Shown piece after piece: positions 40,464 through 64,000 of a stretch of 64,000 nucleotides of DNA. Under the pieces are notes generated by a model. It was not told the origin of the DNA, ran no database searches, and was given only the letters and a program-made list of their open reading frames with translations. This DNA comes from a virus. The stretch's first letter is position 1. Each line of letters begins with the position of its first letter. The position numbers and the translations under genes were made by a program. Location: the IMG/VR virus record IMGVR_UViG_3300047499_000113, positions 62,001 through 126,000 of that record; one strand, written 5' to 3'.

Positions 40464-40484
40464 AAAAGGTATAGTCGAGAGGCC

Positions 40485-41294
40485 ATGCTCAGAGGACTGC
40501 GCAAGCTCGCCATTTCCTTCCGCTGGATGAGCGAGAACTCGGACCGGATACAAGTGCAGCCGCAGATTGTATGGACCAGGCGCTCTGCAGTCACAGAGAA
40601 GCCGAAAGCACGGCCCGTAAGTCCGAGGCCACATCGTGTAGCCCGGTCTATGACGATGACCGCGCAGCTGCCCTGGAAGTTTCCGTTCAAGCCAGTGCGG
40701 GCGCCATGGTCAGTCTTCCAGACGTTGACACTCTCCAACTACTTCATGGAGAAGAAGTTCGACGGCTGGCGAGCCATCGTGCAGGTCGGCGCGAACAACA
40801 TCGTGACGCTCTGGACCCGCGAGAAGCGGCTGATCACGATGCCGGACAACTTGAACAAGCAGCTCGCATTGCTCCAGATGCCGGAAGGCACTCTTCTGGA
40901 CGGCGAGATTTGGAACATGTCCAAGCGCGGCGCCTGGAAGCACAATCGCTCGGCCGTGTGCGCCCTGACGCTTTGGGACGCCATCCGGGTCGACACGCGA
41001 GACTTCTCAGGCGAGCCCATCGAGAAGCGGCGGGAGGCCCTGGAGAAGCTGCTCGAGGGCAAGGACACGCCCGACATCAAGGCGACGGAGCTTCTGGCGG
41101 CCGACGAGACTATCGCGCGTCAGATCGACGCGGAAGCCCGGTCATTTCGCGAGGGCTCGCAGGCTCGATCCGGTTTCATTCACGGCGTGGTTTTGAAGCG
41201 GCGTGGGTCGCCGCGACGAGACAACGCCGTTCGGTGTGTCGAGCACGCCGATTGGATCAAGATTGTCTTCGACGGCATGCAGAGCGGCCTCTGA
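40485..41294 (+). CDS. minimal ATP-dependent DNA ligase-like protein
   Basis: This 269 aa protein has the nucleotidyltransferase motifs: motif I KFDGWR with the adenylated Lys91, motif III LLDGEIW at residues 137-143, motif IV region GVVLKRRGSPRR at 234-245, and WIKI (motif V-like) at 257-260. The preceding 60 residues are basic and may be disordered. There is no OB-fold C-terminal domain, and the protein ends soon after motif V, so it is either a minimal ligase, a ligase-like adenylyltransferase or a truncated one. ATG 40485 has GAGAGG behind it. The last 153 bases overlap the 3' end of the convergent UDP-glucose dehydrogenase gene. Confidence 0.75.
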   Translation: MLRGLRKLAISFRWMSENSDRIQVQPQIVWTRRSAVTEKPKARPVSPRPHRVARSMTMTAQLPWKFPFKPVRAPWSVFQTLTLSNYFMEKKFDGWRAIVQVGANNIVTLWTREKRLITMPDNLNKQLALLQMPEGTLLDGEIWNMSKRGAWKHNRSAVCALTLWDAIRVDTRDFSGEPIEKRREALEKLLEGKDTPDIKATELLAADETIARQIDAEARSFREGSQARSGFIHGVVLKRRGSPRRDNAVRCVEHADWIKIVFDGMQSGL

Positions 41295-42608
41295 TTCTGG
41301 CTGATACTTCCGGACGATCCCGAACAGCTTGACGCCGGCTGCGTCAAAATCGCGCTCGTCCCAAACGTTGCGGCCATCGAAGGCCACCAGGTCCCGGGAT
41401 AGGCGCTTGAGATGCTGCACGTCAGGATTGCGATACTGACGCCACTCGGTGCAAAGGACGATGGCGTCCGCACCAAGGACAGACTCGTACATTTCGCTCG
41501 CGATGCTCACGCGATTGCCGTATCTCTCGTGCACCCGCTGCAAAGCTTGCGGGTCATGCACGATGACGTCGGCTCCGGCCGCGAGCATATCGTCGATGAA
41601 ATCGACAGCAGGAGACTCGCGGATGTCGTCGGTCTCCGCTTTGAACGCGGCACCCCACACGCAGATCTTCTTGCCATGCAGATTGCCGTAGAACTTGGAC
41701 ACGAGCTGGCCGAGCAGGTGTCGCTGGACGTTGTTGGCGTTGTTCGCTGCGTTGACCACGAGAAGATCCTGCCCGACCATCTCCGCCATGTGACGCAGAG
41801 CCATCACATCTTTGGGAAGACAGGAGCCGCCGTACCCGGGCCCGGGGTACAGGTACTGGTGTCCGATACGGGGATCGGCGCCCATCCCGCGACGCACGAA
41901 GTCGATGTCCGCCCCAAGAGCGGTAGCGAGTCTGGCCAGCTCGTTTATGTACGAAATGCGCGTCGCAAGAAACGCATTCGAGGCGTACTTCACGAGTTCG
42001 GAGGACGCCGGATCCATGACGAGCGTCTTGCCCGAGGCCATCGGCCGATAGAGCCGCATGAGGGCGTCTCTTGCGCCGGCGCAGGTGGTTCCAATGACCA
42101 CTCGGTCGGGCCGCATGAAGTCTTCGACCGCCGTACCCTCGCGGAGGAACTCCGGATTGGAGGCCACGCAGCAGTGCTTGTCGAAGTACGACGAGATGAT
42201 CTTGCCGACTGCGTGCGTCGTCCCGACCGGCACTGTGCTCTTGACCACGACAACCTTGTGGGGCTGCTTGGTCTCGCGCAAGACTTCTCCGATCGTGCGC
42301 GCCGTGGCCATCACACTCGATAGGTCGGCCGACCCGTCCGAAGCCTGCGGCGTGCCGACAGTGATGAAGACGACGTCGGCCTGAACGATCGATTGATGAA
42401 CATCAGTCGTGAAGGACAGCCGACCCTCGCCCATGTTGCTGGCGAGCAGGTCGTCCAGGCCGGGCTCGTAGATCGGCGACTTGATGCGGTTGAGCTGGGA
42501 GATCTTGGTCGCGTCGGTGTCCGCGCAAACCACTTCGTTCCCGAACTGCGCGAATCCCGTGCCCGAAACCAAACCAACGTATCCCGCCCCGATCATCGCC
42601 AGCTTCAT
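41142..42608 (-). CDS. ugd: UDP-glucose 6-dehydrogenase
   Basis: This 488 aa enzyme oxidises UDP-glucose to UDP-glucuronate with NAD+ (EC 1.1.1.22). Seen directly: Rossmann GAGYVGLVSG at residues 8-17, SNPEFLREGTA with the substrate loop (150-160), and GPGYGGSCLPKD with the catalytic Cys263, followed by VVNAANNANNVQRH and the C-terminal domain. The last 45-50 residues (after FGIVRKYQPESEAA) extend beyond the usual end and are coded in the overlap with the ligase gene. In this gene block it would supply the substrate of the UDP-xylose synthase at 48459. ATG follows GGTGG. This is high confidence by motif. Confidence 0.92.
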   Translation of the reverse strand: MKLAMIGAGYVGLVSGTGFAQFGNEVVCADTDATKISQLNRIKSPIYEPGLDDLLASNMGEGRLSFTTDVHQSIVQADVVFITVGTPQASDGSADLSSVMATARTIGEVLRETKQPHKVVVVKSTVPVGTTHAVGKIISSYFDKHCCVASNPEFLREGTAVEDFMRPDRVVIGTTCAGARDALMRLYRPMASGKTLVMDPASSELVKYASNAFLATRISYINELARLATALGADIDFVRRGMGADPRIGHQYLYPGPGYGGSCLPKDVMALRHMAEMVGQDLLVVNAANNANNVQRHLLGQLVSKFYGNLHGKKICVWGAAFKAETDDIRESPAVDFIDDMLAAGADVIVHDPQALQRVHERYGNRVSIASEMYESVLGADAIVLCTEWRQYRNPDVQHLKRLSRDLVAFDGRNVWDERDFDAAGVKLFGIVRKYQPESEAALHAVEDNLDPIGVLDTPNGVVSSRRPTPLQNHAVNETGSSLRALAK

Positions 42609-42627
42609 CTGCCACCTGTCTGCAACG

Positions 42628-44184
42628 TTACTCGGCGACGGCCTCGGCCATTGGGGGGCTCCTTCTCAGGATAAAATGAGGAAGGTCGCTCTGGCCCATG
42701 GAGTGCTCGTAACGCATGGCCGCCTTGCCTGGATTGAACGGAATACCGAGCTTCTCGCGCACGGAGTTCTCGACCCAATTGCGCATCTTCACCAGCTCTT
42801 CACCGCTCAGGTGATCGGTGAAGACGTACGAGTGGTACCCGCCGTTGGGGTCGCCCTTGTAATATTCGGCCACTTTCGTGAAGTCCACGTCGTAGGCATG
42901 CAGCCTATCACCGGACTTCTTACATGTGTACGTCCAAACGTCCTCGAGCGTCGGGTGCTCGATGGCCTCGTCGTAATACGGGGTGCCGGGGTAGGTCGTG
43001 ATGACCGTGCAGTCGAAATCGTCTGGCTTGACCTGCAAGAGCCAATCATGTACCGCGGTGATCGTTTCCTCGGACTCTCCGGGATGACCCACCGACATCA
43101 GGGCCTTGACCTTGAGCCCATGGCGGCGAGCGATTTCGAGGACGCGCGTGTTGTCGTCGATAGTCGCTTTCTTGTTGATGTTCTGCAGGATGCGCGGAGA
43201 AGCCGCCTCGAATCCGCAGAGAAGCCAGCGGAAGCCAGCGCGGTACATGGCCGCAGCCTGTTCGTCCGTGAAAAGCTCCGACTTAACAAACCCGCGGAGT
43301 CGAAACTCGGCGCCTACTTCGGACTGCAAATCCGACAGTGCATTCATCAGCTCGACGATGCTCGGGTTGACGTTCAGTTCGTCATCGTAGAACATGAACC
43401 CGCGGAATCCGTAGTTGCGATGAAGCATCGCCACTTCGCGCACGATAGACTGCGTCGTGCGAGTGCGGATCATGCGCAGGGACTTGGAATTGCGGCCACC
43501 GCAGAACCCGCATCCGAATGGGCAGCCGAGCTGCGCGATGAGACTCGTGGCCTTCTCGCCATCGATGGTGTAATTGTATGAGCTGACGTCGACGAGATGC
43601 CGTGCCGGGTAGGGCGATGCATCGTAGGAAACGTCCGTCATGAACAGCCCGCTTCGAGGGTCGTCACCGTCGATGATGCGAGGAGCGTCGGGTTTGAGAG
43701 CAGCGAATACGGCAGCCTCACCATCACCCGAGACAAGAACGTCGAAATTCTGCAGCAAGCGGTCGAGTGCGGCGTGGGCACGGCCAGTGCGACCTGCCTT
43801 CTTCTCGAGCTTGACGGCCGAATGCACAAGTGTGACGTGCGGGCCGCCGATGATGATCTTCATGTCCGGTCGGACGGCTCGGATGCGCTCAGCCACCTTC
43901 ACCGCGGCCGGCAATTGCGGTGTGGTCGTAGTCAGGGCTGCGACCCGAGCCCGGGATTTCTTGGCGTACTCGTCGACGACATCGAGATAGTTCTCGATGC
44001 CCGACAAATCGAGGAGTTCGACCTCGTGACCCGCACGCTCAAGAACAGCGGCCACCTTGAGGATGCCGAGACTCATGAATACCCGCTCGTCGAGCAAAAA
44101 CACCGAGGGCGGTGTGATCATCAGGACCGGCTCCGGCGATCCCCTATCCTTGCCGACAAGCCTCCCGAGCGGAATGATATTCAC
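42628..44184 (-). CDS. radical SAM enzyme with B12-binding-like N-terminal domain
   Basis: This 518 aa protein has a GTG start. Residues about 15-190 look like the cobalamin-binding fold of this class (RVFMSLGILKVAAVLERAGH, KIIIGGPHVTLV, GDGEAAVFA). The radical SAM cluster motif CPFGCGFC (Cys221, 225 and 228) binds the 4Fe-4S cluster. A typical barrel follows (VMFYDDEL-like ENVNPS region, GFRWLLCGFEAASP, VKALMSVGHPGESEE). It ends in a C-terminal domain with a CKKSGDRLHAYDVDFTKVAE segment. Family members methylate or rearrange sugars, lipids or antibiotics. Here a sugar or surface-glycan modification is inferred from neighbouring genes. Its substrate is unknown. Confidence 0.8.
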   Translation of the reverse strand: MNIIPLGRLVGKDRGSPEPVLMITPPSVFLLDERVFMSLGILKVAAVLERAGHEVELLDLSGIENYLDVVDEYAKKSRARVAALTTTTPQLPAAVKVAERIRAVRPDMKIIIGGPHVTLVHSAVKLEKKAGRTGRAHAALDRLLQNFDVLVSGDGEAAVFAALKPDAPRIIDGDDPRSGLFMTDVSYDASPYPARHLVDVSSYNYTIDGEKATSLIAQLGCPFGCGFCGGRNSKSLRMIRTRTTQSIVREVAMLHRNYGFRGFMFYDDELNVNPSIVELMNALSDLQSEVGAEFRLRGFVKSELFTDEQAAAMYRAGFRWLLCGFEAASPRILQNINKKATIDDNTRVLEIARRHGLKVKALMSVGHPGESEETITAVHDWLLQVKPDDFDCTVITTYPGTPYYDEAIEHPTLEDVWTYTCKKSGDRLHAYDVDFTKVAEYYKGDPNGGYHSYVFTDHLSGEELVKMRNWVENSVREKLGIPFNPGKAAMRYEHSMGQSDLPHFILRRSPPMAEAVAE

Positions 44185-44221
44185 CCCGAAAAAGCCTGAT
44201 TAGAACTCTGTATAGTCCTCC

Positions 44222-44923
44222 ATGATCGGGACAGAGATTCGACGTGGGTCTTTTGCCGGTAAAGAGTTCAGCTTCGTGTACTGGAGCGAGCAGACAGGAC
44301 TCGACCCGGACAGGTCCAATGACACATGGTGGGTGTTCGAGGACGAAAAAGAGGTCCGCGAACGTCACTGGCATTTCCAGCCGGGTGACGTTGTCATAGA
44401 CGTGGGTTCGAACTGCGGAGGATATACCCTGACTGCAGCCGTCCAGGGCGCGGAGGTATGGGCTTTCGAGCCCTACAAGCTCTGCTCGAATTGCCTCGCA
44501 GCCAACGTCGCCATCAACCCCGATTTCAACATTCACATCATGCGGGTCGGAGCCTCAGACAAAGAAGAGGAGATCACGGGAATCGATGTATTCGGTCCTC
44601 GACTTGCCGGTTCGAATTCTTTCCCTGGGTATCACGAGCCGCTCAAGCTAGTCCCGCTCGACAGCGTCTTGGGGAATCTGGACAAGGTCGACATGATCAA
44701 GGTCGACATCGAGGGGCACGAGGCTAAGATGTTGCGAGGGGCGGCCGAGCTGATAAAGCGGTGCAAGCCCCGGATGCTCATCGAGGAGCACATCTTCCGC
44801 GACCCATCACTCAGCCAGCAATGTCAGGAGATCATCGAATCATGGAATCTCGGCTACAAAGTCGAGCGGGTTCCACGCGGAGCGGTGATCCACGCGTTCT
44901 GGACTACCGCGGGCCCCTTGTGA
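44222..44923 (+). CDS. FkbM-family methyltransferase
   Basis: This 233 aa protein has the FkbM signature: VVIDVGSNCGGYTLTAAVQG as SAM-binding motif I, AEVWAFEPYKLCSNCLAANV, and VDMIKVDIEGHEAKMLRGAA for the later motifs. FkbM enzymes O-methylate sugars and other small hydroxyls. It is read on the plus strand, 37 bases from the GTG of the radical SAM gene, so both could share a divergent promoter region. The 3' end overlaps a small minus-strand gene by 20 bases. It fits the nucleotide-sugar block as a sugar-decorating enzyme (inference). Confidence 0.85.
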   Translation: MIGTEIRRGSFAGKEFSFVYWSEQTGLDPDRSNDTWWVFEDEKEVRERHWHFQPGDVVIDVGSNCGGYTLTAAVQGAEVWAFEPYKLCSNCLAANVAINPDFNIHIMRVGASDKEEEITGIDVFGPRLAGSNSFPGYHEPLKLVPLDSVLGNLDKVDMIKVDIEGHEAKMLRGAAELIKRCKPRMLIEEHIFRDPSLSQQCQEIIESWNLGYKVERVPRGAVIHAFWTTAGPL

Positions 44924-45062
44924 TCGGATTACCGCATTCCTCACAGCATCCTTCGAGACCGTCGTCGTCTTCGTCGTCTTGAGACACGATCTCGACCAGA
45001 ACCGGATTGCATCGATCCGCTGACGGTCCGTCGATCGGTCGCAGGCATACTGTCTTGTTCAT
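44904..45062 (-). CDS. small zinc-binding-type protein, 52 aa
   Basis: This ORF is shorter than most, but it is coupled to the glycosyltransferase gene by an ATGA overlap. It reads MNKTVCLRPIDGPSADRCNP, an acidic stretch, then CCEECGNPITRGPR. Four or five Cys, including CCEEC, suggest a mini zinc-binding fold. The acidic centre and basic tail are unlike random sequence. Its stop lies in the 3' end of the convergent FkbM gene. The function is unknown. Confidence 0.6.
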   Translation of the reverse strand: MNKTVCLRPIDGPSADRCNPVLVEIVSQDDEDDDGLEGCCEECGNPITRGPR

Positions 45063-46192: not shown

Positions 46193-48459
46193 GTGAGCCC
46201 CATGAGCAAGCGGACCTGCTTCGAGATCTCTGCCCAGTTGTGGGTCTTGCCCATCTCTCGCCCCCTGGCCTGAGCCACTTTGTAGACTTCGTTATCAGTC
46301 AAGAACCTGAGCAGGTTGTCGAAGTAGTGGTCCTTATTCTTCGCGTACGGTGCCGGAGTCGTCGGCACGAAGTTCCCGTAGATCTCGCCCAGCGCATCCG
46401 AACCACAGATTACCGGGAGGCATCCGGACACGGCGCCTTCGAGAGTTGTGCAAGAGAACCCTTCGGTAAACCGCACCGGGTCGCATGTGTAAGCGAGGAT
46501 TCGTGATTCGGACAGAACCTTCACCATTTGGCAGCGAGACACGCTCTTGTGATGGAAGAGCCCACGGCCCTGGAGCTGGCTGACCGCCATGTTGATGTAT
46601 TTGTACCTGTTGGCCAGTTCCTTCTCACCCAGCTGTTCGTAGATCTGAACGGCGTTGTCCTGGATGTGATAATAGACGTGGCATTCCACGTCGGGGACAC
46701 GCTTCTTCAGGCGCGGGAAAAGTTCCAGGAGCCAGTGAAGACCACGATCAGGACTTGAGGCATACACCAGCTTGTGGTTATTCCTCGGGAACTCGTAGTA
46801 AACTGATGGGTCGCATCCATTGGGTAGAATCCGCCAGTCCTTGAACTGGCTGAACTGCGACAGATGCTTCTGGTGCGCGTGCGACAGGGCGGTCACGATG
46901 TCCGTATACTGCTCCCATCCATGGCAGTATCCGAAATCGTTGACTTGCTGATTGAAAATACGCAGCGGCCCCTTATTCATATGTTGGAAGCCACCGGGGT
47001 GAATGGTCGCGAAGGCCGCGTACCAATCCTGTTTCGCTTCCTGCTGCCAGCGGTCCCACCTGGCGAACTGAATGCCATGAGCCGAGAAGTTCTGGCTGAA
47101 GTTCGAGTACATGGTCACATCGTGACCCTGTCTCCCCATTTCAATGGCCTGCATCAAGTTCGTGATCTCGGAACCTGTCAGTCCCCGAGGGTCTGTGAAC
47201 AGGACTTCTGGATTGATTGGTCGAACCGCCGCCCACGGGTCGAGCAAGAAAGCGATCTTCTTGCGTGACGATGACGTGGGAGCTGGCTTTGGGTCCGGTG
47301 CATCGCTCGGCTGGTAGCCAGGGACATCATTCGAGGGCTGGGGCGGGGGCTCGGGCGGTGGCGTAGTCGTGACAATCGGGACGAATCCGGTGTTCTGGCA
47401 GATGATGTCGCTCAGGACCTTTCCGGCTTTTTCGTACGTATATTGCTTGGCCAGTTCTCGGCCGAGCGCCGAGTAATGCTTGGACACATCACTGTCTTGC
47501 AGGACTTTCACTACCGCATCGGTAAACGGAGCCAGGCTCTTCTCAGCCGGACCGGGGACCATGTAGACATGGTCCTTGTAGATGGATTCCAGTGCATCCT
47601 GCGGGGTCAGGACGACGGGAATACCGATCTTGCAGCATTCCATGATGCTGACGGAAAATGTCTCGCACGGGGAAACGACCGAGCAGGGAAAGGCGAATAC
47701 ACTGGCTGCCGACAGCTCCTTCAGAACCTCGGTGCGAGGAAGGTTGGCCATCAGGGTGACGCCACCAGCCTTCTGAGCAAGTTCCAGGTTCTGCTTGAGA
47801 GCGCGGACTCGCCTGCTGATCTCGGAGTTCTCGATGCCGCGACGGTCCACGTGTGCGTAGAGCTTATCGAGGTCGCTGATCACGTGGAGAGTGGCGTGCG
47901 GGACTCGAGCCTTGATTTCTGGCCACATCTGCGCAAGAAGATGCAGGCCGCGCCCTGCTGACGTGTGATAGACGACGCGCCCAGAGACTGGGTTCCAATC
48001 CGGGACAGCCTCTACCGCGTTCGGAAGGACACGCCAATCCGCCCATGGAGCCCAGAATGCCTTCAGAGTCTCCAATGCTGCCTGGCTCGGCGCGGTATTG
48101 ACATCCGTGTGTTCGAATGCAGCCAGACCCTCAATGAGGTAGCTGTGGTGAGATGCAATCCGGAGACAGCCCCACCTGCCGCGAAGAGGCCGGGCGTCAT
48201 ACTGCGCCCACATGACGTTCGGGTGCCCATGCTTGTCTAGTTGATCAAGCGGAAAGTATTGGACGTTGTTGATCGAAGCGGGTGTCCGAAAGAGCGAAAA
48301 CGCCCGAACCTGGTGCCCGTACTTCGGCAGCTCTTTGACCAAATTGAGGAACGCAGCGCGACACCCACCACCCACGCTGTCAGACAGCGGGTTCAGCACG
48401 TCCATCGTGTATCCGCTGGCAGCGTCGGGTGACAGAATTGCGTGAACGATGGAGCCCAT
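46189..48459 (-). CDS. two-domain GT-B glycosyltransferase fusion
   Basis: This 756 aa protein consists of two complete GT-B units joined by a Pro-rich linker (TTTPPPEPPPQPSNDVPG near residues 395-410). Unit 1 has YHTSAGRGLHLLAQMWPEI and ETFSVSIMECCKIGIPVVL. Unit 2 has FTDPRGLTGSEITNLMQAIE, YASSPDRGLHWLLELFPRL and FSCTTLEGAVSGCLPVI. The second unit is closely related to the single-domain enzyme at 45059. Two catalytic units on one chain could add two sugars in sequence. The ATG overlaps the UDP-xylose synthase stop in TGATG, which implies a coupled operon. A longer frame starting 36 codons upstream overlaps that gene and was not used. Confidence 0.85.
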   Translation of the reverse strand: MGSIVHAILSPDAASGYTMDVLNPLSDSVGGGCRAAFLNLVKELPKYGHQVRAFSLFRTPASINNVQYFPLDQLDKHGHPNVMWAQYDARPLRGRWGCLRIASHHSYLIEGLAAFEHTDVNTAPSQAALETLKAFWAPWADWRVLPNAVEAVPDWNPVSGRVVYHTSAGRGLHLLAQMWPEIKARVPHATLHVISDLDKLYAHVDRRGIENSEISRRVRALKQNLELAQKAGGVTLMANLPRTEVLKELSAASVFAFPCSVVSPCETFSVSIMECCKIGIPVVLTPQDALESIYKDHVYMVPGPAEKSLAPFTDAVVKVLQDSDVSKHYSALGRELAKQYTYEKAGKVLSDIICQNTGFVPIVTTTPPPEPPPQPSNDVPGYQPSDAPDPKPAPTSSSRKKIAFLLDPWAAVRPINPEVLFTDPRGLTGSEITNLMQAIEMGRQGHDVTMYSNFSQNFSAHGIQFARWDRWQQEAKQDWYAAFATIHPGGFQHMNKGPLRIFNQQVNDFGYCHGWEQYTDIVTALSHAHQKHLSQFSQFKDWRILPNGCDPSVYYEFPRNNHKLVYASSPDRGLHWLLELFPRLKKRVPDVECHVYYHIQDNAVQIYEQLGEKELANRYKYINMAVSQLQGRGLFHHKSVSRCQMVKVLSESRILAYTCDPVRFTEGFSCTTLEGAVSGCLPVICGSDALGEIYGNFVPTTPAPYAKNKDHYFDNLLRFLTDNEVYKVAQARGREMGKTHNWAEISKQVRLLMGLT

Positions 48460-49427
48460 CAGATTCCCCTCTTGAGATACCAGGCAATCGTCTTGGCGAT
48501 GCCCTGATCGTACGGCACTTTCGGTTCCCAGCCCAAGAATTTCTTGGCGAGCGCGATGTCCGGGCAACGCTGCTTCGGATCATCCGTGGGCAATGGCTTC
48601 ATGACGATGTCGCCCTCTCCGCCGAAAGCGGAGATGACATCCATGGCCACACTCTTGATGGTACGCTCGTCGGGGTTGCCGATGTTGACCACCGGGATGC
48701 GCTGATGGAGTGTGTCCACATCGACGTTCTTGATGGCTCGGAAGTTGACCTCCATGAGCTTCACGAGTGCATCGACGGTATCCGAGACGTAGCAGAAGCT
48801 CCTGGTCTGGCTTCCGTCGCCGTAGACCGTCAGCGGCTCTTTCTGCATGGCCTGCAGGATGAAGTTCGGAATGAGCCGGCCGTCACGGAAAGCCATCCGT
48901 GGACCGTAGGTGTTGAAGAGTCGCGCGATGCGAACGTCGGTGCCGTACTGGTTGGCCCAGGCGACCGCGAGACTCTCGCCGATGCGCTTGCCCTCGTCAT
49001 AGCAGGCACGCGGCCCGAGCGGATTGACGTGACCCCAGTAGCTCTCCTTCTGCGGATGCACCTCGGGGTCGCCGTAGACTTCGGAAGTCGACGTGATGAG
49101 GAGACGTGCCCGGGTGTTGCGCGCGCACTCGAGCGCGTTGCGCGTGCCCATCATCGCAGTCTCGATGGTCCGCACCGGGTTGCGTTGGTAGTGCACCGGG
49201 CTCGCAGGGCAGGCCAGATGGTAAATCTGGTCACACTCGATGTGCCACGGGTCGCAGACGTCGTGCCGGTAGAACTCGAAGTCCCGATGGTCGAACAGGT
49301 GAGCGATGTTCTCCCGGTGAGAGGTGAACATATTGTCGATGCAGACGACCTCGTGTTTCTGCGCGAGCAGAAATTCGCAGAGGTGACTTCCGATGAAACC
49401 CGCGCCTCCTGTGACAATTATGCGCAT
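48459..49427 (-). CDS. UDP-glucuronate decarboxylase (UDP-xylose synthase)
   Basis: This 322 aa enzyme is an NAD-dependent SDR that converts UDP-glucuronate to UDP-xylose (EC 4.1.1.35). Seen directly: GGAGFIGSHL at residues 7-16, HLACPASPVHYQRNPVRTIE, the catalytic STSEVYGDP at about 113-121, YDEGKR with Tyr143 and Lys147, and RLFNTYGPRMAFRDGRLIPN. The HLACPASPVHY motif and YWGHVNPLGPRACYDEGKR separate this subfamily from ordinary epimerases. It pairs with the dehydrogenase at 41142 to make a two-step UDP-xylose route. Its ATG overlaps the 3' end of the endonuclease VII gene by 10 bases. High confidence. Confidence 0.92.
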   Translation of the reverse strand: MRIIVTGGAGFIGSHLCEFLLAQKHEVVCIDNMFTSHRENIAHLFDHRDFEFYRHDVCDPWHIECDQIYHLACPASPVHYQRNPVRTIETAMMGTRNALECARNTRARLLITSTSEVYGDPEVHPQKESYWGHVNPLGPRACYDEGKRIGESLAVAWANQYGTDVRIARLFNTYGPRMAFRDGRLIPNFILQAMQKEPLTVYGDGSQTRSFCYVSDTVDALVKLMEVNFRAIKNVDVDTLHQRIPVVNIGNPDERTIKSVAMDVISAFGGEGDIVMKPLPTDDPKQRCPDIALAKKFLGWEPKVPYDQGIAKTIAWYLKRGI

Positions 49428-52347: not shown

Positions 52348-52410
52348 GCGGTCTTGGTCTCTGTATGCGTGTGGACCGGCGAACCTGCCGGTCAATCACA
52401 CGTTACCGAG

Positions 52411-52737: not shown

Positions 52738-52749
52738 TCGCCACCCTAC

Positions 52750-53673
52750 TCAGGTCATCTGGGAATACGAGGCGTACGCGTCGATGCACTGGCCGCGGAA
52801 GCTCATGTTGGTCCACGGCGTGGTTTGCGACGTGTACGCGTTGGAGATTGCCGTGTGAGCGGTCTCCATCGTCGCGAGAGCGCCTGGAGCTCCAGTCCAG
52901 TAGGACTCGTTACCAAGGCCCGAATCAGTCTCTGATCCGCAGAACAGGCCAAAATCACGCGCCGAGGCCGTCACGCTCGCGTAGTTGTACCAGAACGCGA
53001 ACTCATTGATCTGCGTTGTCGAGTTGTTGGAGTAACACCCGACCGCAACGAAGTCCGCGTTATCAATGAGGTTCAGACCCTCGAGCTGGCTCGCCTTGCC
53101 GTTGTAGGAGAAAGAGAGCGCTGCAGAGGACGGATCTGCGAGCCACTCGGTGGCGAAACATCCGACCGGGATGTGAAGCACGCGACGAGCAGCCTGCATC
53201 AGGTCACACAGACCGATCGGGTCCGCAGTCGTGTACCCGGTGACCGAGTAGTATTCGACGTCGAAAATGAGCCCGTCGAAGCCACCAGCCTCGTTCGTGA
53301 TGGAGCCGGTCTGCGCAATGGCGTTGAACTGCGCGATGTTCTTGATGATGTTGGAAGCCACCCAGCCCTGCTGCTGACCCCACGTGGTGTCGCCGGCGAG
53401 GGCGTAGACGCGGATACCGGAAGCGTGGCACCAGTGAATGAACTTCGCCATTTGCTGCTGGTTGGCCACACTCCAGTTCGAGCCACCGATATACTCCCAC
53501 ATGTCGAGGAAGATGAGGTTGACCCCCTTCGACGAGCACCAGTTCAACACGCTCTGGATGTTGGCGTCGCTCCCGATGACGCCCGAGCTACCTGTAGCAG
53601 GAACCCACAGAAACATGGCTCGGTCCATGTTCGAATTCGGAGGTGTCGGGACTGTAACGGCGGTGATCGTCAT
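52750..53673 (-). CDS. TIM-barrel-like glycosidase or lectin-type tail protein
   Basis: This 307 aa protein has ATG at 53673 (MTITAVTVPTPPNSNMDRAM). The fold looks like a TIM barrel of the sugar-active kind: MFLWVPATGSSG, NLIFLDMWEYIG, RVYALAGDTTW, FDGLIFDVEYYSVTGY with acidic residues (D..D.E) at the end of a strand where the catalytic pair would be, HIPVGCFATEWLAD and FVAVGCYSN. The sequence is Ser/Thr/Asn-rich, as in secreted or virion surface enzymes. It lies among fibre genes, so a polysaccharide-degrading or binding tail component is proposed. No exact GH family can be named without a search. Confidence 0.5.
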   Translation of the reverse strand: MTITAVTVPTPPNSNMDRAMFLWVPATGSSGVIGSDANIQSVLNWCSSKGVNLIFLDMWEYIGGSNWSVANQQQMAKFIHWCHASGIRVYALAGDTTWGQQQGWVASNIIKNIAQFNAIAQTGSITNEAGGFDGLIFDVEYYSVTGYTTADPIGLCDLMQAARRVLHIPVGCFATEWLADPSSAALSFSYNGKASQLEGLNLIDNADFVAVGCYSNNSTTQINEFAFWYNYASVTASARDFGLFCGSETDSGLGNESYWTGAPGALATMETAHTAISNAYTSQTTPWTNMSFRGQCIDAYASYSQMT

Positions 53674-53722
53674 ATGTTTCGTCTCCTGAATCATCTAGCA
53701 ATGATGGAAGATGATAGACGAT

Positions 53723-54481: not shown

Positions 54482-54483
54482 GT

Positions 54484-55920
54484 TTAGAACTCCACCCAGT
54501 CGAAAGATGCATCAATTAGATTTCCCGAAGTGCTCGCCCTGTAGAACCGAATGCGCGCCGGACCCGCAATGACAGAAGTTGGTTCTGTCGAGCGAGCATA
54601 TCCTCCATAGCGAGCCCCTGGGCCAACATGAAGCGTGGTCTCGGCGGGTCCGGTTGCGATTGGATTGATGACGCGAAGGAGTGTCGTGAATGAACTCTCA
54701 ACTCCCGTGTTATCCCACTGAATGCCGACGATGTAGCAGGTCTTTCCGGTCTGAACGTAATGCATCCCCAAGAACGTCTGATTGTCACCACCTGCGATGA
54801 TCGAGCCAGTGCCGATAGTCGTGATCGTCCCGCCGCCACCCGCGTTGTTCACGTAGAGCGTGATGACCCCTGCGTTCACCCCACCGCTACCAGCCCTCGT
54901 CACTATAAGGCTCTCGATGAATCGGTAGCTGTTCACCGTTGCCACTGCTGTCGTGCCGTTCATGGACACAACTTCAGTGAGTCGGTTCATGTTTCCGTCG
55001 AATCCGACTACCGTGACTTGCTGAGCGCCCGTGCCCGCTGAGGCATCACTCGCACTCGCCGATTTGAGGGATCGAATTGCAGCGGAAGTCTGCTCTGTAT
55101 ATGCAGTCGCAGACAATTGTCCCGCAGAACCCGAAGAATTGAAACCAACCGTGTGGCCGACGTATGCACCAGAAATCCTTGCGACTGCCGCCGCGTAGGC
55201 AAAATTTCCAGTTAGAGCGAGACCATTAACGTCGGTAATAATAGAGCGCAGAGTGTTGGAAGCGTCGATACCTCCAACCATGGCGGCTGTAGGTGGCATG
55301 GCGCCAGTAACGCCAATTGGACCATCGAACAGAGTGGATGGATCTCTAACTTGGCTCGCCCGCATCGCACAGTTCGCCGAGCCTGAAGTGAACGCAGAAA
55401 CTCTGACGCGAGCGTGCGATGCGCCACCTGCACCGACGATCGTTTTACCTGTAGTTCCATTCGCCGAAGAGAATACGATAGTCGAAGCTTTGGAACCTGT
55501 CGCCGGATCGTCAAAAAATGACGTGTTCCAAGTAGTTCCACCATCAAAGGAGATTTCGGGAACGATCGTGCCGATGAGTGTACCTGAAAGAAGCTGGAAT
55601 CCAACGCTCTGCGATCCCGCGAGTGCCACCTGAACCGCTGCATTCAACGCATTCAGAAGCCCAGAGCCTGTTGTATCAGGAATTTGAGTGGAAAGAACTC
55701 CACCTGTGGGGCCGCCAGCGGCACCAAGTCCGACCACGGTCGCATTGAGGTTCGCTGCGGTCGGCTGCGTGACTTGAATGGGTCCCGTCACGCCAACTGG
55801 CATCATGCCGTTTTGGCCCTGCACAGTCATCACCCCGCCCGTGGGCGAGGGGAATCCGGGGGTCCCCTGGCTCGTATCGACGAAGATCGGGGCGGGAGCA
55901 GCTACTATCACCGCGGGCAC
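54484..55920 (-). CDS. fibre/baseplate structural protein, 478 aa
   Basis: It starts at GTG 55920. The N-terminal 200 residues contain a Gly/Thr/Pro-rich segment with collagen-like traces (GVTGPIQVTQPTAANLNATV), then ATGSKASTIVFSSANGTTGK. A second domain (ITGNFAYAAAVARISGAYVG) precedes the shared C-terminal module DASAGTGAQQVTVVGFD and EVVSMNGTTAVATVNSY. The module is duplicated in the protein at 53723. Composition and position suggest a tail-fibre-associated or baseplate spike component that is exported only as part of the virion (no signal peptide). Its start overlaps the endonuclease gene at 55908 by 13 bases. Confidence 0.55.
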   Translation of the reverse strand: MPAVIVAAPAPIFVDTSQGTPGFPSPTGGVMTVQGQNGMMPVGVTGPIQVTQPTAANLNATVVGLGAAGGPTGGVLSTQIPDTTGSGLLNALNAAVQVALAGSQSVGFQLLSGTLIGTIVPEISFDGGTTWNTSFFDDPATGSKASTIVFSSANGTTGKTIVGAGGASHARVRVSAFTSGSANCAMRASQVRDPSTLFDGPIGVTGAMPPTAAMVGGIDASNTLRSIITDVNGLALTGNFAYAAAVARISGAYVGHTVGFNSSGSAGQLSATAYTEQTSAAIRSLKSASASDASAGTGAQQVTVVGFDGNMNRLTEVVSMNGTTAVATVNSYRFIESLIVTRAGSGGVNAGVITLYVNNAGGGGTITTIGTGSIIAGGDNQTFLGMHYVQTGKTCYIVGIQWDNTGVESSFTTLLRVINPIATGPAETTLHVGPGARYGGYARSTEPTSVIAGPARIRFYRASTSGNLIDASFDWVEF

Positions 55921-56345
55921 TTTGACTTCTCCAGATACTCGGCGGCCATCCGCAACTGAATGGAACTGTCTTTCATCAGCTCAAGAGCCCTATTGCAATC
56001 TGTGCATAGAAGACCACGGATCACGTTTGTCTTGTGATCGCGGTCCACGGAAAGACGGATGACTTTGCCGTTTATCGTGCGCACTTCCTTCTCGCGACAT
56101 ATGGCACAGACTCCATTCTGTTCAACGAGAATTTGATCATAGTCTTCAGGAGGGATGCCGTAATCGTTCTTGAGGTTTCGTCGACGGACGCTCTCAGAGT
56201 GGAGAGGATCTAACCCATCGCGTTCGCGCCGAGTCGCAACACTTCTTTTTTTGCTGGCGGCATACGCTTCTGGATTCAGTTCACGGCTTTTCTTACTCCG
56301 TTCTATAGATGCTGCCTTCCTTTTCTGGGGGTCTTTGTACGGCAT
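55908..56345 (-). CDS. endonuclease VII-like protein
   Basis: This 145 aa protein has ATG at 56345, overlapping the collagen-like gene's stop in TAATG. A basic N-terminus (KDPQKRKAASIERSKKSREL) leads to the core QNGVCAICREKEVRT, LSVDRDHKTNVIRGLLCTDC and a C-terminal helix. Relative to the protein at 49418 the first His of DHDH is Arg (DRDH), so activity may be altered. It is the second EndoVII-type gene of the window. It is inserted between two structural genes and is AT-rich, a sign of mobility. Confidence 0.75.
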   Translation of the reverse strand: MPYKDPQKRKAASIERSKKSRELNPEAYAASKKRSVATRRERDGLDPLHSESVRRRNLKNDYGIPPEDYDQILVEQNGVCAICREKEVRTINGKVIRLSVDRDHKTNVIRGLLCTDCNRALELMKDSSIQLRMAAEYLEKSKCPR

Positions 56346-59300
56346 TAGATATTCCTGACTTCGGTGTACGAAATGAGCGTGTTACCTGAGTAGGTATATG
56401 TGATCGTCACTTGTCCAATGACGGTGACGCCATCAGAAGCATAGGTTTTGCGAACTTCCTGCGTGACTCGAGAACCCGAGTAGGTGTAGTCGATGGATTT
56501 GAGGAGGGTGCTCGTAGCGTGATTCGTCCAAGTCTCTCGATAGACCTTGCTCCCAGAGTAAGTCGCTGCGTAATCGTTGGTGACCTCGACGGGATCGTTG
56601 CAAGCGAGCAGGAAGTCATTGTAGCTAGGACCGGTGACTGACGGACCGGTTGCTCCTTGCGGTCCAGTTGCACCGGTGCTTCCAACAGGACCCGTTGCTC
56701 CCTGGGGGCCAGTTTGCCCTTGTGGCCCTGTTGCTCCTTGAGGCCCCGTAGCGCCAGTGCGACCAGCGGCTCCAGTTGGTCCTGTCGCGCCTTGCGGTCC
56801 CGTCGACCCGGTGACACCTGGTGAACCTTGAGCACCTTGCGGACCGGTCGATCCGGTAACACCTGGCGAGCCTTGAGTCCCCTGCGGACCGGTAGCTCCA
56901 GTTGATCCGGCGGGGCCGGTGGCGCCTTGTGGTCCTGTGGCACCCGTCGGTCCAATTTGGCCAGTAGGTCCTTGCGATCCGACCGGTCCCGTAGCACCTT
57001 GAGGACCTGTTGCTCCAGGAGATCCTTGCTGCCCTTGTGGACCTGTAGCGCCTGGAGATCCCTGTGCACCCTGGGGCCCTATCGGTCCTGTCGGCCCAGT
57101 GGCCCCGGTAACTCCGGGAGAACCCTGCAGCCCTTGTGGTCCTGTAGCGCCGGTAACACCAGGTGAACCCTGAGGGCCTTGCGGCCCGGTAGATCCTGTA
57201 CTTCCGACAGGGCCTGTCTGTCCTTGAGGCCCGGTTGCTCCCGTAGCGCCAATTGGTCCGGTCGGACCTTGTGGCCCAGTAGCCCCCGTGATTCCAGGTG
57301 AACCCTGCTGCCCTTGTGGACCTGTAGCGCCAGTGCGACCAGCGGCTCCAGTTGGTCCTGTCGCGCCTTGCGGTCCGGTCGCTCCTGTAGCTCCAATGGG
57401 GCCGGTCGCACCCTGAGGACCAATGGGACCAGTCGATCCTTGAGGACCCGTGGCTCCGGTGCTACCAATAGGACCAGTGGAACCCGTGACTCCGGGGCTC
57501 CCTTGGGATCCTTGAGGTCCGGTGGCGCCGGTAGATCCAATGGGCCCAGTTGCACCTTGTGGTCCTGTAGCGCCGGTAACACCAGGTGAACCCTGAGGAC
57601 CTTGCGGCCCAGTCGACCCAGTGACTCCGGGTGAACCTTGAGGTCCCTGTGGACCTGTAGCGCCGGTGCTCCCGATAGGACCAGTCGCTCCTTGCGGACC
57701 GGTGGGTCCAGTCGCACCGATCTGTCCAGTTGGACCATGCGGACCGGTCGCGCCAGTGCTTCCAATCGGGCCAGTCGACCCAGTTACTCCAGGCGAACCT
57801 TGTGCGCCTTGAGGACCGGTGGCACCAGTTGAACCAACCGGGCCCGTAGCACCCTGCGGTCCGGTGCTTCCCGTTACCCCTGGACTACCCTGCTGACCTT
57901 GCGGACCGGTGGGGCCAGTGGCACCAGTAGAACCGACCGGACCCGTGGCACCCTGCGGTCCAGTGGAACCCGTACTACCGATTTGTCCAGTTGGGCCCTG
58001 GGGTCCTGTAGTTCCGGTTACCCCCGGGGATCCCTGAGGACCAATAGGACCGGTTGGGCCCGTATTTCCTGTGACTCCGGGTGAACCCTGCGGGCCTTGG
58101 GGTCCAGTTGCTCCTGTGGATCCTATGGGGCCAGTTGAACCTTGCGGTCCTGTGGCTCCGGTGCTCCCAATTGGGCCAGTCGATCCTTGTGGTCCAGTTG
58201 CTCCTGTGACTCCCGGCGACCCCTGCGAACCTTGAGGGCCAGTGGCACCCGTGACCCCTGGGCTGCCCTGTTGACCTTGGGGGCCTGTAGCGCCAGTGCT
58301 GCCAATCGGACCAGTTTGTCCCTGAGGACCGGTAGGACCGGTAGGACCCGTAACTCCTGGCGATCCCTGCGAACCTTGCGGGCCCGTTGAACCAGTGACC
58401 CCGGTGACTCCAGGAGATCCTTGCTGACCCTGAGGTCCAATGGCGCCAGTGCTGCCTACAGGACCAGTCGGACCGGTTGCACCCGTCGAACCGATCGGGC
58501 CGGTTTGCCCCTGTGGACCGGTGGCGCCCGTAGACCCTATCGGGCCAGTTGAGCCCTGAGGCCCTGTGGCGCCCTTTACGCCAGGGGACCCTTGGGGGCC
58601 TGTACTTCCGGTTGAGCCTTGCGGTCCAGTCGACCCAGTAACTCCCGGACTTCCTTGTTGTCCTTGAGGTCCGGTTGACCCCGTGACGCCAGGAGAGCCC
58701 TGCTGACCTTGCGGGCCGGTCGCACCGGTAGACCCGATCGGGCCGGTTGGACCTTGGGGACCGGTTGCGCCAGTGCTACCCACAGGACCGGTCGAGCCCT
58801 GAGCACCTGTCGCTCCTGTGACTCCTGGCGATCCTTGTGTTCCCTGAGGTCCGGTAGCACCGGTCGGTCCGACATCGCCAGTCGGTCCCTGAGGTCCTGT
58901 GGAACCTGTGACTCCCGGTGATCCTTGAGGTCCTTGCGGTCCTGTCGATCCGGTTGGGCCCTGTGGACCAGTCGATCCAGTTTGGCCCTGAGGACCTGTG
59001 CTGCCAGTGACACCAGGCGATCCCTGAGCGCCTTGGGGGCCCGTTGGACCCGTGACGCCTGGCGATCCTTGAGTTCCTTGCGGACCAGTTGCACCTGTGG
59101 AACCGATCTGGCCGGTTGGTCCTTGCGGGCCGGTCGACCCCGTAGACCCTATTGGTCCGGTCGCTCCCGTGATGCCTGGTGAGCCTTGAGGTCCTGTGGC
59201 GCCAGTGACCCCGTCAGCACCAGTAGCACCCTGCGGTCCGGTCGCTCCTATAACGCCAGGAGATCCCTGCGGTCCAATAGAACCAGTCGCACCTGTGACA

Positions 59301-61048
59301 CCCGGTGAACCTTGGGAGCCTTGCGGGCCTGTGCTTCCGGTCGGTCCAACATCTCCGGTCGCACCTTGGGGCCCAGTCGCTCCCGTCGATCCAACAGGCC
59401 CGGTCTCTCCCTGTGGGCCAGTTGAACCTGTAGGTCCGATGTTTCCCGTAGGTCCTTGGGGCCCGGTGCTACCGGTGACACCGGGAGATCCCTGGGGGCC
59501 AGTCGCGCCAATCGGACCGGTCTGGCCCTGGGGACCAGTTGCGCCAGTAACACCCGGAGACCCTTGCGGGCCAGTAGACCCCGTAATCCCAGGGCTTCCC
59601 TGCGGGCCAGTGGCACCTGTAACCCCGGGAGATCCCTGACTACCCTGCGGGCCTGTAGCGCCGGTGGCCCCGTCCGGCCCTGTAGCTCCAGTGGAACCAA
59701 TTGGCCCGGTAGAACCCTGAGGGCCAGTGCTGCCGGTAACTCCTGGTGACCCTTGAGTGCCCTGCGGGCCAGTGGCACCTGTAACCCCGGGAGATCCCTG
59801 TTCACCTTGCGGGCCGGTCGCTCCCGTGGCTCCGACGTCACCCGTAGGACCCTGAGGTCCAGTTGCGCCAGTCGATCCTTGCTGTCCAGTCGGCCCTTGG
59901 GGACCTGTAGACCCCGTTACTCCGGGAGAACCTTGATCCCCTTGAGGGCCAGTTGCTCCCGTTGGTCCGATGCTGCCAGTCGATCCCTGGGGGCCAGTTG
60001 CTCCCGTGACTCCTGGGCTGCCCTGATCGCCCTGAGGACCTGTAGAACCGGTCGGTCCAATAGAGCCCGTTGATCCTTGCGGACCCGTGGCTCCAGTTGC
60101 TCCTTGGGGCCCAGTTGCACCGGTAGAACCAACAGGTCCCGTGGACCCGGTGACTCCTGGAGAGCCTTGGCTGCCTTGCGGTCCTGTAGCTCCAGTGGCA
60201 CCATCTACGCCAGTTGCGCCTTGAGGGCCCGTGGTACCTTGAGGACCGGTCGAGCCCGTGACACCAGGGGAACCCTGCTGGCCCTGAGGACCCGTGGACC
60301 CCGTGACACCCGGCGAGCCTTGATCTCCCTGTGGACCGGTTGCCCCTGTAGCACCTTGGGGACCTTGCGGGCCTGTAGCGCCAGTGGAACCGACTTCTCC
60401 AGTCGGCCCTTGCGCTCCGGTTGAGCCAGTTACGCCTGGCGATCCTTGCTGTCCTTGCGGTCCTGTGGCGCCCGTAGCCCCGTCGACACCCGTCGCACCC
60501 TGGGGACCCGTTGCGCCTGTGGAGCCGACTGGTCCGGTTTCTCCTTGCGGGCCAGTAGAACCGGTGACGCCAGGGGTCCCCTGATCACCCTGAGGTCCCG
60601 TCGCGCCTGGAGAACCCTGCTGCCCTTGCGGACCGGTCGGACCAGTAACTCCATCATTGCCTTGAGGCCCGGTCGGACCAGTAACTCCCGGAGAACCCTG
60701 CGGGCCTTGGGGACCGGTCGGTCCAGTCGCGCTGAGAGGCCCTGTAACTCCAGAGGGGCTGAGTGAATAAATCTGACCGGTGTCAGTGATGTAGAGGTCC
60801 CAAGGCAGACCGCTCGGAGTGAGGATTTGGAGAGGCGGAGCTAGTCCGGTCGGCGACAAACCCGTGTACGGCACGAAACCGACATAGCTCATCGCCAGAT
60901 CGAGATCTGGCTTCAGCGAGTCATCGTCGAGATAGATATCGACGTAGATCGTCGCATTCGAGACACCAGTGATCACCGCGCCCGCGTCGATGACATTCTC
61001 GAGCGCAGTCTGATTGATCGGGTTGGACTGGTATCTATAGATGCCCAT
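56345..61048 (-). CDS. giant collagen-like tail fibre protein
   Basis: This 1567 aa protein has an N-terminal globular domain (residues about 1-100; [40 protein letters not shown]), then about 1360 residues of continuous Gly-X-Y triplets ([22 protein letters not shown]) and a C-terminal domain of about 98 residues ([38 protein letters not shown]) likely to trimerise. Collagen-like repeats form stiff triple helices. Thr at Y positions is abundant and is known in bacterial collagen-like proteins to be O-glycosylated. The ATG overlaps the stop of the next fibre gene (TAATG). It is probably a very long tail fibre or head fibre. Confidence 0.85.
56640..60730 (-). repeat. Gly-X-Y collagen-like coding repeat, tract 1
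   Basis: This is continuous 9-base periodicity, a Gly codon every third codon. The encoded repeat is extremely regular at amino-acid level (for example GATGPQG and GSPGVTG), while DNA copies vary at nearly all third positions. In the Gly codon, GGT, GGA, GGC and GGG are mixed. Long perfect DNA repeats are not seen, so the tract should be less prone to slippage than a simple repeat. It is the largest repetitive element in the window. Confidence 0.85.
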
Positions 61049-64000
61049 TACACGAGCTCAACGGTCACAACGACCTGGCTAACAGCAGGGGAAACGCTGG
61101 CTGTTTTTGTGGCCTGAATCGTCACTTGATCGCCGGCGTTGACGTTGACGGTGTGAAGCGTGTCCTGGCCAGTCGTCACGTTGCCGGCAACAGTCGCGGA
61201 GAGACTCGTGGTTGTGCCATTGACCTCCACCGTGTAAGTGATGGTGTTTGTAGAAGTGCTCGGCGAATTCTGCATCACGTAGAGATGCTGCAGAGTGCCG
61301 CTCCTCGTCACGCGCAAGCGATAGATATCTGAAGTTGCAGCGAGGCTCGAGACGTAGCCTGGATAGAGCCAGCGCGTTGCAGTCGTCGTCGCCATGCTGT
61401 CGGCGGCGAAGACGAGAATGGTGCCCGCGCCCGGACCTCGAGGTCCGGTGGGTCCGGTTACACCCGTGGGACCAGCCGGGCCAGTTGGACCAGTTGCACC
61501 TTGAGGCCCGGTCGGTCCCGTGGCTCCGATCGGTCCCGTGGCTCCTGTAGTGCCGAATGGTCCGGTGGGCCCAGTGAAGCCCGTAACGCCTGGCGATCCT
61601 TGCGGACCGATCGGACCTGTGGGCCCGGTGACACCGGTCACTCCGGGGCTGCCCTGCGGCCCAATCGGTCCAGTTGGACCAGTTGCACCCTGAGGTCCTG
61701 TTGCGCCGGTGACCCCCGGCGATCCTTGCGGACCGACAGGACCAGTCGGACCAGTGAATCCAGTTACTCCCGGGCTGCCATGCGGCCCGATCGGACCGGT
61801 GGGTCCAGTGACACCCGTTGCTCCCTGAGGCCCGGTGGGTCCAGTTGCGCCTTGCGGGCCAGTTGCACCCGTGACACCATTGGCCCCGGTCGGTCCTTGC
61901 GGGCCAGTGAATCCAGTGACGCCCGGCGATCCTTGAGGCCCGGTCGCGCCAGTGGGGCCAATGTCGCCGGTCGGGCCCTGAGGACCCGTAGCCCCCGTGA
62001 CTCCCGGAGAGCCTTGTGGTCCGATCGGACCCGTAGGTCCGGTTGCACCCGTGACCCCAGGAGAGCCTTGCGACCCGACCGGGCCGGTAGCACCTGTTGG
62101 TCCTATGTCACCAGTCGGTCCTTGAGGACCCGTGGCCCCTGTGACGCCAGGTGAGCCCTGCTCACCTTGGGGTCCAGTTGGACCCGTGGCTCCAGTGACT
62201 CCATCAGCACCGGTAGCCCCTTGCGGACCGGTTGCACCCGTCGGCCCGATATCGCCAGTCGGACCTTGAGGACCTGTAGCGCCAGTAACTCCAGGAGATC
62301 CCTGATCGCCTTGCGGACCGGTTGCACCCGTGACGCCGGGAGAACCTTGCGGCCCGATGGGGCCTGTAGCACCGGTGACGCCAGGTGAGCCCTGCGGTCC
62401 TGTGGCGCCGGTTGCTCCGTCAGCTCCCGTTGCTCCTTGCGGCCCAGTTGCCCCGGTAACACCCGGTGAGCCTTGAGGACCTGTTGCTCCTGTAACGCCA
62501 TCTACTCCGGTGGCTCCTTGAGGCCCGGTAGCACCGGTTGGGCCAATTTCTCCAGTTGGACCCTGCGGCCCAGTGGCGCCAGTCACCCCCGGTGAGCCCT
62601 GATCGCCTTGCGGACCTGTCGGTCCAGTGGTGCCTGTCACACCATCGGCGCCAGTGGCTCCTTGTGGTCCGGTAGCGCCCGTGACTCCAGGAGACCCTTG
62701 TTCACCTTGCGGGCCGGTCGCGCCCGTAGCACCGTCCGCTCCGGTCGCTCCTCGAGGACCGGTGGCGCCAGTCACACCATCAAAGCCAGTAGCACCCTGC
62801 GGACCAGTCGCTCCGGTAACTCCCGGGCTGCCCTGATCGCCTTGCGTACCAGTTGCTCCCGTGGGCCCAATGTCTCCCGTGGGCCCTTGCGGTCCAGTCG
62901 CTCCTGTAACGCCCGGCGAACCCTGCGGACCGAAGTCTCCAGTCGGGCCCTGAGGCCCGGTGGCTCCAGTTACACCATCTGCACCGGTCGGGCCCTGCGG
63001 ACCTGTGGCGCCCGTGGGACCGATATCGCCAGTTGGACCTTGTGGGCCGGTGGCTCCAGTGACTCCGGGTGACCCCTGCTCCCCTTGAGGCCCTGTCGCG
63101 CCCGTGACTCCATCAGCGCCCGTAGGACCCTGAGGACCAGTTGCTCCAGTCGGTCCAACATCACCAGTAGGACCCTGGGGACCTGTCGCGCCCGTAACTC
63201 CGGGTGAACCCTGATCACCTTGTGGACCCGTAGCACCCGTGACGCCATCAACTCCGGTAGCCCCTTGAGGTCCGGTGGCGCCGGTAACTCCATCGACACC
63301 TGTCGCGCCCTGAGGGCCTGTCGCCCCGGTAACGCCCGGCGAGCCTTGGTCTCCTTGCGGGCCGGTGGCTCCAGTAACTCCTGGGCTACCTTGATCGCCC
63401 TGCGGGCCCGTGGGACCGGTCGCGCCTGTGACACCGTCATTGCCCTGTGGTCCAGTGGCGCCCGTGGGTCCGATGTCACCAGTAGGCCCTTGAGGTCCTG
63501 TCGCGCCCGTAACTCCAGGAGATCCCTGGTCTCCCTGAGGACCCGTAGCGCCGGTCGCGCCATCAGGTCCAGTTGCACCCGTAAAGCCATCGGCACCAGT
63601 CGGTCCCTGTGGGCCAGTAGCTCCGGTGACTCCATCGGCACCCGTAGCCCCTTGTGGGCCGGTGGCTCCGGTGATACCCGGCGAGCCTTGATCACCTTGA
63701 GGCCCAGTTGGACCGGTGGCACCCGTGGCTCCGTCTGGACCCGTGGCTCCTGTGACTCCTGGAGATCCTTGATCGCCCTGGGGTCCAGTCGCTCCCGTAA
63801 CTCCGGGGGAACCCTGCGGTCCAGTCGCTCCTGTGGGACCAATATCACCAGTTGGTCCTTGGGGTCCTGTGGAGCCAGTAACCCCATCAGCTCCCGTCGC
63901 ACCTTGCGGTCCAGTTGCTCCGGTGACTCCGGGTGAACCTTGATCGCCTTGCGGACCTGTCGGACCGGTTGCCCCATCAGGTCCTGTGGCTCCCGTCACT
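61048..64000 (-). CDS. second giant collagen-like fibre protein, partial at right edge
   Basis: The ORF runs off the right edge, so its N-terminus is missing. At least 983 residues are present: about 860 of Gly-X-Y repeat rich in GATGPQG, GPTGATG and GSPGVTG, and a C-terminal domain of about 125 residues ([80 protein letters not shown]) that is beta-rich and resembles trimerisation heads of bacterial collagen-like proteins. Its stop overlaps the next gene's start (TAATG). It and the next gene form a fibre pair in tandem. Confidence 0.85.
61436..64000 (-). repeat. Gly-X-Y collagen-like coding repeat, tract 2
   Basis: This is a second continuous Gly-X-Y tract of over 2.5 kb with the same triplets as tract 1 ([23 protein letters not shown]) and scrambled synonymous codons. 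It differs from tract 1 in having more GADGVTG and GDIGPTG units. It extends beyond the window edge. Confidence 0.85.

Follow-up and report, generated by a model that had tools for sequence, protein, structure and literature searches.

Glycosylation of virion proteins by phages and glycosylation of collagens have each been described. Mycobacteriophages carry glycans on capsid and tail-tube subunits (Freeman et al. 2023, as cited in PMC12619734), BclA-type collagens of the Bacillus exosporium are glycosylated (PMC8968730), and Mimivirus, a large virus, hydroxylates and glycosylates its own collagen (PMC9546862, PMC8968730). Among enzymes acting on proteins and peptides, GmaR (the O-GlcNAc transferase of Listeria flagellin) and SunS/ThuS (peptide S-glycosyltransferases) carry TPR or TPR-like helices behind their GT2 domain. 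The TPR joined to the GT2 of GmaR is proposed to recognize flagellin (PMC9638930), and in Caulobacter flagellin O-glycosylation FlmG binds its substrate via a TPR domain while its GT-B domain transfers the sugar in the cytoplasm (PMC7591256). Here we analyzed a window of 64,000 nucleotides, positions 62001-126000 of a 240,015-bp IMG/VR virus record (IMGVR_UViG_3300047499_000113, hereafter G000), in which a gene for a GT2-TPR-GT4 glycosyltransferase (GT) and a set of sugar genes lie close to two giant collagen-like genes. Positions without a record name refer to the window. From sequence and predicted structure we propose, with a probability of roughly 0.72, that this lytic-type jumbo phage encodes a cytoplasmic system for O-glycosylation of its own collagen fibers on Thr or Ser. 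In the open-licence library searched, we came across no description of a phage system that glycosylates collagen; the combination is new and its kinds are known.

The G000 enzyme has the GmaR and SunS/ThuS order of GT2 and then helical repeats, but it has a GT4 domain fused behind the TPR, is phage-encoded, and adjoins collagen genes. FlmG, in contrast, has its TPR first, GT-B only and no GT2. The G000 collagens share Gly-X-Y repeats with BclA, but they are phage-encoded and giant. A PDB sequence search with the C-terminal 130 amino acids (aa), where BclA would have its trimerization domain, gave nothing better than an E-value of 0.4, and thus showed no BclA-like domain by sequence. As in the mycobacteriophages, glycans would be placed on virion proteins, but on collagen fibers, by enzymes of a different architecture and with the phage's own sugar-nucleotide supply. 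Whereas the Mimivirus system involves hydroxylysine, other enzymes and a eukaryotic host, X is mainly Pro in both G000 repeat regions and Lys/Arg are nearly absent (about 0.01 per triplet), with Thr and Ser as the candidate sites.

Type of the conserved glycosyltransferase

An earlier note, made from the letters of the window, had counted five catalytic-type domains on three glycosyltransferase proteins. All were recovered, with the EX7E motif in the four GT4 domains of the block and a DGDD motif kept in the GT2 domain of the GT2-TPR-GT4 protein. The longest reading frames of two of the GTs start at TTG (48567 and 52395), and the starts at 48459 and 52347 are likelier. When a profile of the GT2-TPR part was searched against solved structures, GmaR was closest (1e-34) with plain TPR proteins set aside, and SunS and its homolog 7msk followed at 6e-15 or better (best value for SunS/ThuS, 2e-18). 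The remaining GT2 enzymes reached just 1e-4. The region behind GT2 was recognized as TPR by profile matches and by helical repeats in the predicted model.

A first model of the complete 812-aa protein, built from 5 sequences, was poor (predicted template modeling score, pTM, 0.47) and was not used. The AlphaFold model of the GT2-TPR part, built from a 13-sequence alignment, reached a mean predicted local confidence (pLDDT) of 91 and a pTM of 0.84. In a fold search with this model SunS/ThuS came out nearest: the first six Foldseek matches in the PDB were SunS/ThuS (1e-13 to 5e-16), and the seventh was at 4e-7. In a library of viral models, similar folds were also seen for proteins of giant viruses and of other tailed phages. 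Together, sequence comparison and the predicted fold support the assignment of the GT2-TPR part to the protein or peptide glycosyltransferase type. Since sequence and fold are GmaR/SunS-like, the layout is that of GmaR, and the TPR of FlmG binds flagellin, a protein would be the most likely acceptor. The 13 GT2-TPR-GT4 enzymes compared share 38-65% pairwise identity, and the 13 records therefore represent distinct viruses.

Distant homologs of the enzyme were also seen on two podovirus-like contigs, at L083:774-7307 (MW202524.1, a spring podovirus record) and at L079:8777-13272. The latter is a 68-kb contig filed under Patescibacteria, which carries phage genes and looks like a phage contig. 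Both homologs lie close behind a major-capsid-type gene within a structural cluster, with no collagen within the stretch read. Their capsid-adjacent position still points to virion glycosylation.

Giant collagens and their association with the enzyme

As the earlier note had seen, two giant Thr-rich Gly-X-Y genes, encoding proteins of 1567 and 2295 aa, adjoin the block. The complete second gene lies at G000:123048-129935, and Thr occupies 53% of the Y positions in its 716 triplets. The start of the first collagen gene and the stop of the second overlap by 1 base. Both proteins have long uninterrupted Gly-X-Y repeats and matched Pfam PF01391 (4e-204 and 3e-130). Extended collagen rises 0.286 nm per residue, and by arithmetic on its triplets the 2295-aa fiber would be about 0.6 micrometers long if fully extended. 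The position of the two genes among conserved structural-type genes suggests that the collagens are virion fibers. Thr content was also tried as a separator of phages with and without the GTs, and it failed.

Relatives of G000 were found via collagen-independent anchors, namely the conserved gene at 36294-37625, the GT itself, and the flanking genes g70 and g85. Collagen was present in 15/15 jumbo-phage records with GT2-TPR-GT4, in most of them directly upstream. At least 10 collagen matches were found in 13 of the 15 records with the enzyme, the other two being cut by a contig edge, versus 2 of 23 records without it (Fisher test across these related records, 1.7e-6; 9e-6 once duplicates and short contigs were left out). 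One of the two enzyme-free exceptions, G007, is a fragment of 134 kb that has its collagen at a different site; in the other, G038, the contig breaks off within the collagen. A gene-by-gene check of 13 blocks placed the end of the collagen 16 bp to 11.3 kb upstream of the GT on the same strand. The GT followed directly after the collagen in G008 and G019 (16 and 70 bp), and in G035 the collagen lies about 5 kb upstream by coordinates.

The locus has a recognizable frame: g85 immediately precedes the collagen, and g71/g70 follow the sugar block. A giant collagen started within about 100 bp at 13 of 15 g85 loci, and the GT was present at all 11 with a continuing contig. G010 and G025 have g70 (G025 also g71) next after g85, without a giant collagen in between, and neither record contains the GT anywhere. 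The distant g70-anchored records G026-G034 have neither giant collagen nor GT. Collagen and GT block are thus jointly present or absent at one conserved locus. The earlier note had named loss of synteny between fibers and sugar genes in relatives as a finding that would speak against its proposal; no such loss was seen, and GT and collagen were kept together.

G005 and G006 have small collagens only, flanked by other GT2 and epimerase genes and by a gene for a 2-oxoglutarate (2OG) Fe(II) oxygenase. A 359-aa gene beside these collagens matched the GT2-TPR-GT4 profile weakly (2e-13). The oxygenase belongs to a superfamily that has prolyl hydroxylases among its members, and might be one itself. 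Of 23 records searched for it, these two alone contained it (L058:1992-2765, which is G005:166992-167765, and the same in G006), and it may mark a hydroxylation route in another branch. Collagen-like proteins of other sizes were also observed. G016:199684-211566 (L053, L052) encodes one of 3960 aa with 1189 Gly-X-Y triplets, about 1 micrometer if fully extended, a length that is to our knowledge unusual among all collagen-like proteins. Two smaller ones lie elsewhere in G000, at 40170-41795 (L011) and 135124-136176 (L013) of the record, with 73 and 40 triplets. The position of the former is conserved, also in the GT-free G001 and G007.

Sugar supply and the proposed pathway

From the collagens (61048 on) to 41142, almost every gene is on the minus strand, and neighbors overlap or are separated by short gaps (Table 1). 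Read along that strand, the two collagens are followed by the endonuclease VII-like gene, the two phrog_8198 proteins, a 314-aa and a 108-aa protein, GT2-TPR-GT4, UDP-xylose synthase (UXS), the double and the single GT4 proteins, FkbM on the opposite strand, the B12-binding radical SAM protein, and UDP-glucose 6-dehydrogenase (UGDH). The earlier description of one block of sugar genes holds for its closeness to the collagens, less so for FkbM, which breaks the strand order and occurs only sporadically in relatives.

Table 1. Features of the collagen and sugar locus, in window coordinates
Feature	Position	Strand	Remarks
Giant collagen-like protein 2, C-terminal 983 aa in window	61048..64000	-	Runs past window end
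Giant collagen-like protein 1, 1567 aa, 454 Gly-X-Y triplets	56345..61048	-	Thr at 50% of Y positions
Recombination endonuclease VII-like gene	55908..56345	-	Pfam PF02945, 1e-18; separates collagen from sugar block; probably incidental
Two related phrog_8198 proteins, 252 and 478 aa	53723..55920	-	Between collagen and GTs
307-314 aa protein	52750..53694	-	Without family match; 55% homolog directly before GT in G022
GT2-TPR-GT4 bifunctional glycosyltransferase, 812 aa	49909..52347	-	Conserved core enzyme; proposed protein-initiating transferase
UXS (UDP-glucuronate decarboxylase)	48459..49427	-	Sequence relatives and motif segments
Double GT4 glycosyltransferase, 756 aa	46189..48459	-	Two GT4 domains; proposed chain extension
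GT4 glycosyltransferase, 377 aa	45059..46192	-	One GT4 domain; proposed chain extension
FkbM-family methyltransferase	44222..44923	+	Opposite strand to block; sporadic in relatives' blocks
B12-binding radical SAM protein	42628..44184	-	CxxxCxxC motif
UGDH	41142..42608	-	Three Pfam domains, 5e-31 to 6e-61; GGSCLPKD active-site motif
g70, conserved 299-aa gene	38871..39770	-	Far boundary of variable locus; unbiased anchor

UGDH, UXS, the radical SAM protein and FkbM, all named in the earlier note, gave strong matches to their families. UGDH passed the NCBIfam cut-off for NDP-sugar dehydrogenases. The best solved relatives of UXS were all human UDP-glucuronate decarboxylase (UXS1), with 2e-110, whereas the next family reached 9e-36. 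Its STSEVYGDPEVHPQ and CYDEGKR segments were identical in the alignment, and it has STSE and YxxxK segments that are conserved in aligned relatives. The GT4 domains were closest to generic sugar/lipid transferases (PimA and MshA types), and no specific substrate hint was found when one was sought for them.

We found that the donor enzymes varied among relatives. UXS (at least 50% identity) occurred in 8 of 14 inspected blocks (G000, G004, G008, G012, G019, G021, G022 and G035), and UGDH in 3 of about 14 (G000, G019 at 47% and G021 at 65%, with a weak match in G016). The blocks of the remaining members had different epimerases, or none seen within reach. Radical SAM homologs adjoined the GTs with 66-74% identity in G004, G012, G020 and G021 and with 30-31% in G008, G022 and G035. 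From phage to phage the sugar donor supply is exchanged, whereas GT2-TPR-GT4 and collagen stay, and the full UDP-xylose pathway is therefore a trait of G000 and a few others. The two-step route to UDP-xylose claimed earlier thus stands for G000, which has both enzymes, and not for the group at large. Where UGDH is missing, UDP-glucuronate would come from the host.

In the pathway that we propose, UGDH and UXS, both identified by sequence, would convert host UDP-glucose to UDP-xylose. The GT2 domain would then set the first sugar on Thr or Ser of unfolded Gly-X-Thr chains, with the TPR serving as a substrate-binding platform; the enzyme type is supported here, while we infer the target and the residue. 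The GT4 domain of the same protein and the other GT4 proteins could lengthen the glycan with xylose, other sugars or both, and xylose may accordingly form part of the glycan of G000. The radical SAM protein and FkbM might, more speculatively, alter sugars or residues. The glycosylated chains would finally trimerize into long virion fibers, in which the sugar may hydrate and stabilize a hydroxyproline-free triple helix, protect it from proteases, or set adhesion. Collagen would thus be the acceptor, Thr and Ser its probable sites, and stabilization, protection or adhesion the candidate roles of the sugar.

Several observations were made on neighboring genes. The phrog_8198 pair has homologs at the equivalent place in G021, G022 and G003. 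The protein at 52750-53694, between the collagen and GT genes, looked hydrolase-like by eye. BLAST of the block against named phages returned short pieces only, and no PHROGs names were obtained for the structural genes on its flanks. The conserved gene at 36294-37625 has distant homologs in Tunturiibacter phage Tunturi_5 and Bacillus phage G (LR745208.1, PP885688.1, JN638751.1), which hint at a distant kinship of the group with known jumbo-phage lineages. Its assignment as major capsid protein was dropped, the Tunturi_5 homolog being annotated 'minor tail protein' beside a tail terminator and sheath. A 1939-aa tail-sheath protein (24830-30649, C-terminal phrog_2839 match) is far above the usual sheath length.

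Competing explanations and meaning

Clusters of phage GTs near tail fibers, as in pelagimyophages (PMC7029224), are usually read as remodeling the host surface glycan (O-antigen or capsule), for example against superinfection, their place near fibers reflecting the gathering of host-recognition modules there. The likeness of the GT4 domains to generic sugar/lipid transferases fits this account, as do sugar-nucleotide genes that vary among phages as in O-antigen loci. However, the most conserved enzyme is GmaR/SunS-like and not of the lipopolysaccharide (LPS) or undecaprenyl type. No tyrosine integrase was found in the G000 record, which weakens lysogenic conversion. Among jumbo-phage records the GT was present only where collagen was present, a coupling that, like the protein-type transferase, remodeling of the host surface leaves unexplained, and we consider this account unlikely. 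Slightly less likely again, the targets could be other virion proteins, such as the capsid or the small proteins between collagen and GT, with the collagen linkage a mere matter of neighborhood. The podovirus-like homologs beside a major-capsid-type gene, and the recurrence of the genes at 53723-55920 and 52750-53694 in G022 and partly in G021, speak for such targets; but the intervening genes are inconstant among members while collagen is constant, and nothing intervenes in G008 and G019, where the GT directly follows the collagen. Phage glycosyltransferases have also been reported to modify hypermodified phage DNA (as cited in PMC12619734). Here this is highly improbable: a PF00303 thymidylate-synthase-type hydroxymethylase, the one base-modification route searched for, was not found in the 240-kb record, the GT2-TPR part is similar to peptide transferases, and all matches of the two GT families in G000 fall in one block beside the fibers.

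Glycosylation of the phage's own collagens, which we favor, has points against it as well. The evidence for it consists of sequence, genomic linkage and predicted structure, and the G000 record may be incomplete. Because the records are related, the counts are not independent events, and conserved synteny alone could explain part of the association; in G039 the GT lies about 19 kb from the giant collagen and on its other side. Thr content does not discriminate, since Thr-rich collagens also occur in G007 and G001 (both partial contigs), where no such GT was found, and Thr at Y is common in bacterial collagens in general (PMC8968730). The enzyme family is not collagen-specific, given the podovirus-like homologs without collagen. 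The earlier proposal of own-fiber glycosylation has gained a protein-type GT and its joint presence with collagen; the fibers would probably carry sugar, with xylose as a candidate.

A wider scenario is held more tentatively, at somewhat less than even odds. It sees a family of jumbo phages with an all-phage pathway, in which a dedicated initiating GT2-TPR-GT4 works with swappable donor and extending enzymes, the sugar (xylose in G000) replaces hydroxyproline as stabilizer or shield, and the type of sugar evolves. If collagen glycosylation by these phages is true, it would provide a clear test of bacterial-type collagen stabilization without hydroxyproline, and would show what is modified by a type of phage glycosyltransferase for which host LPS or DNA is the usual assignment. 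It would also offer a compact enzyme set for the production of glycosylated collagen in bacteria.
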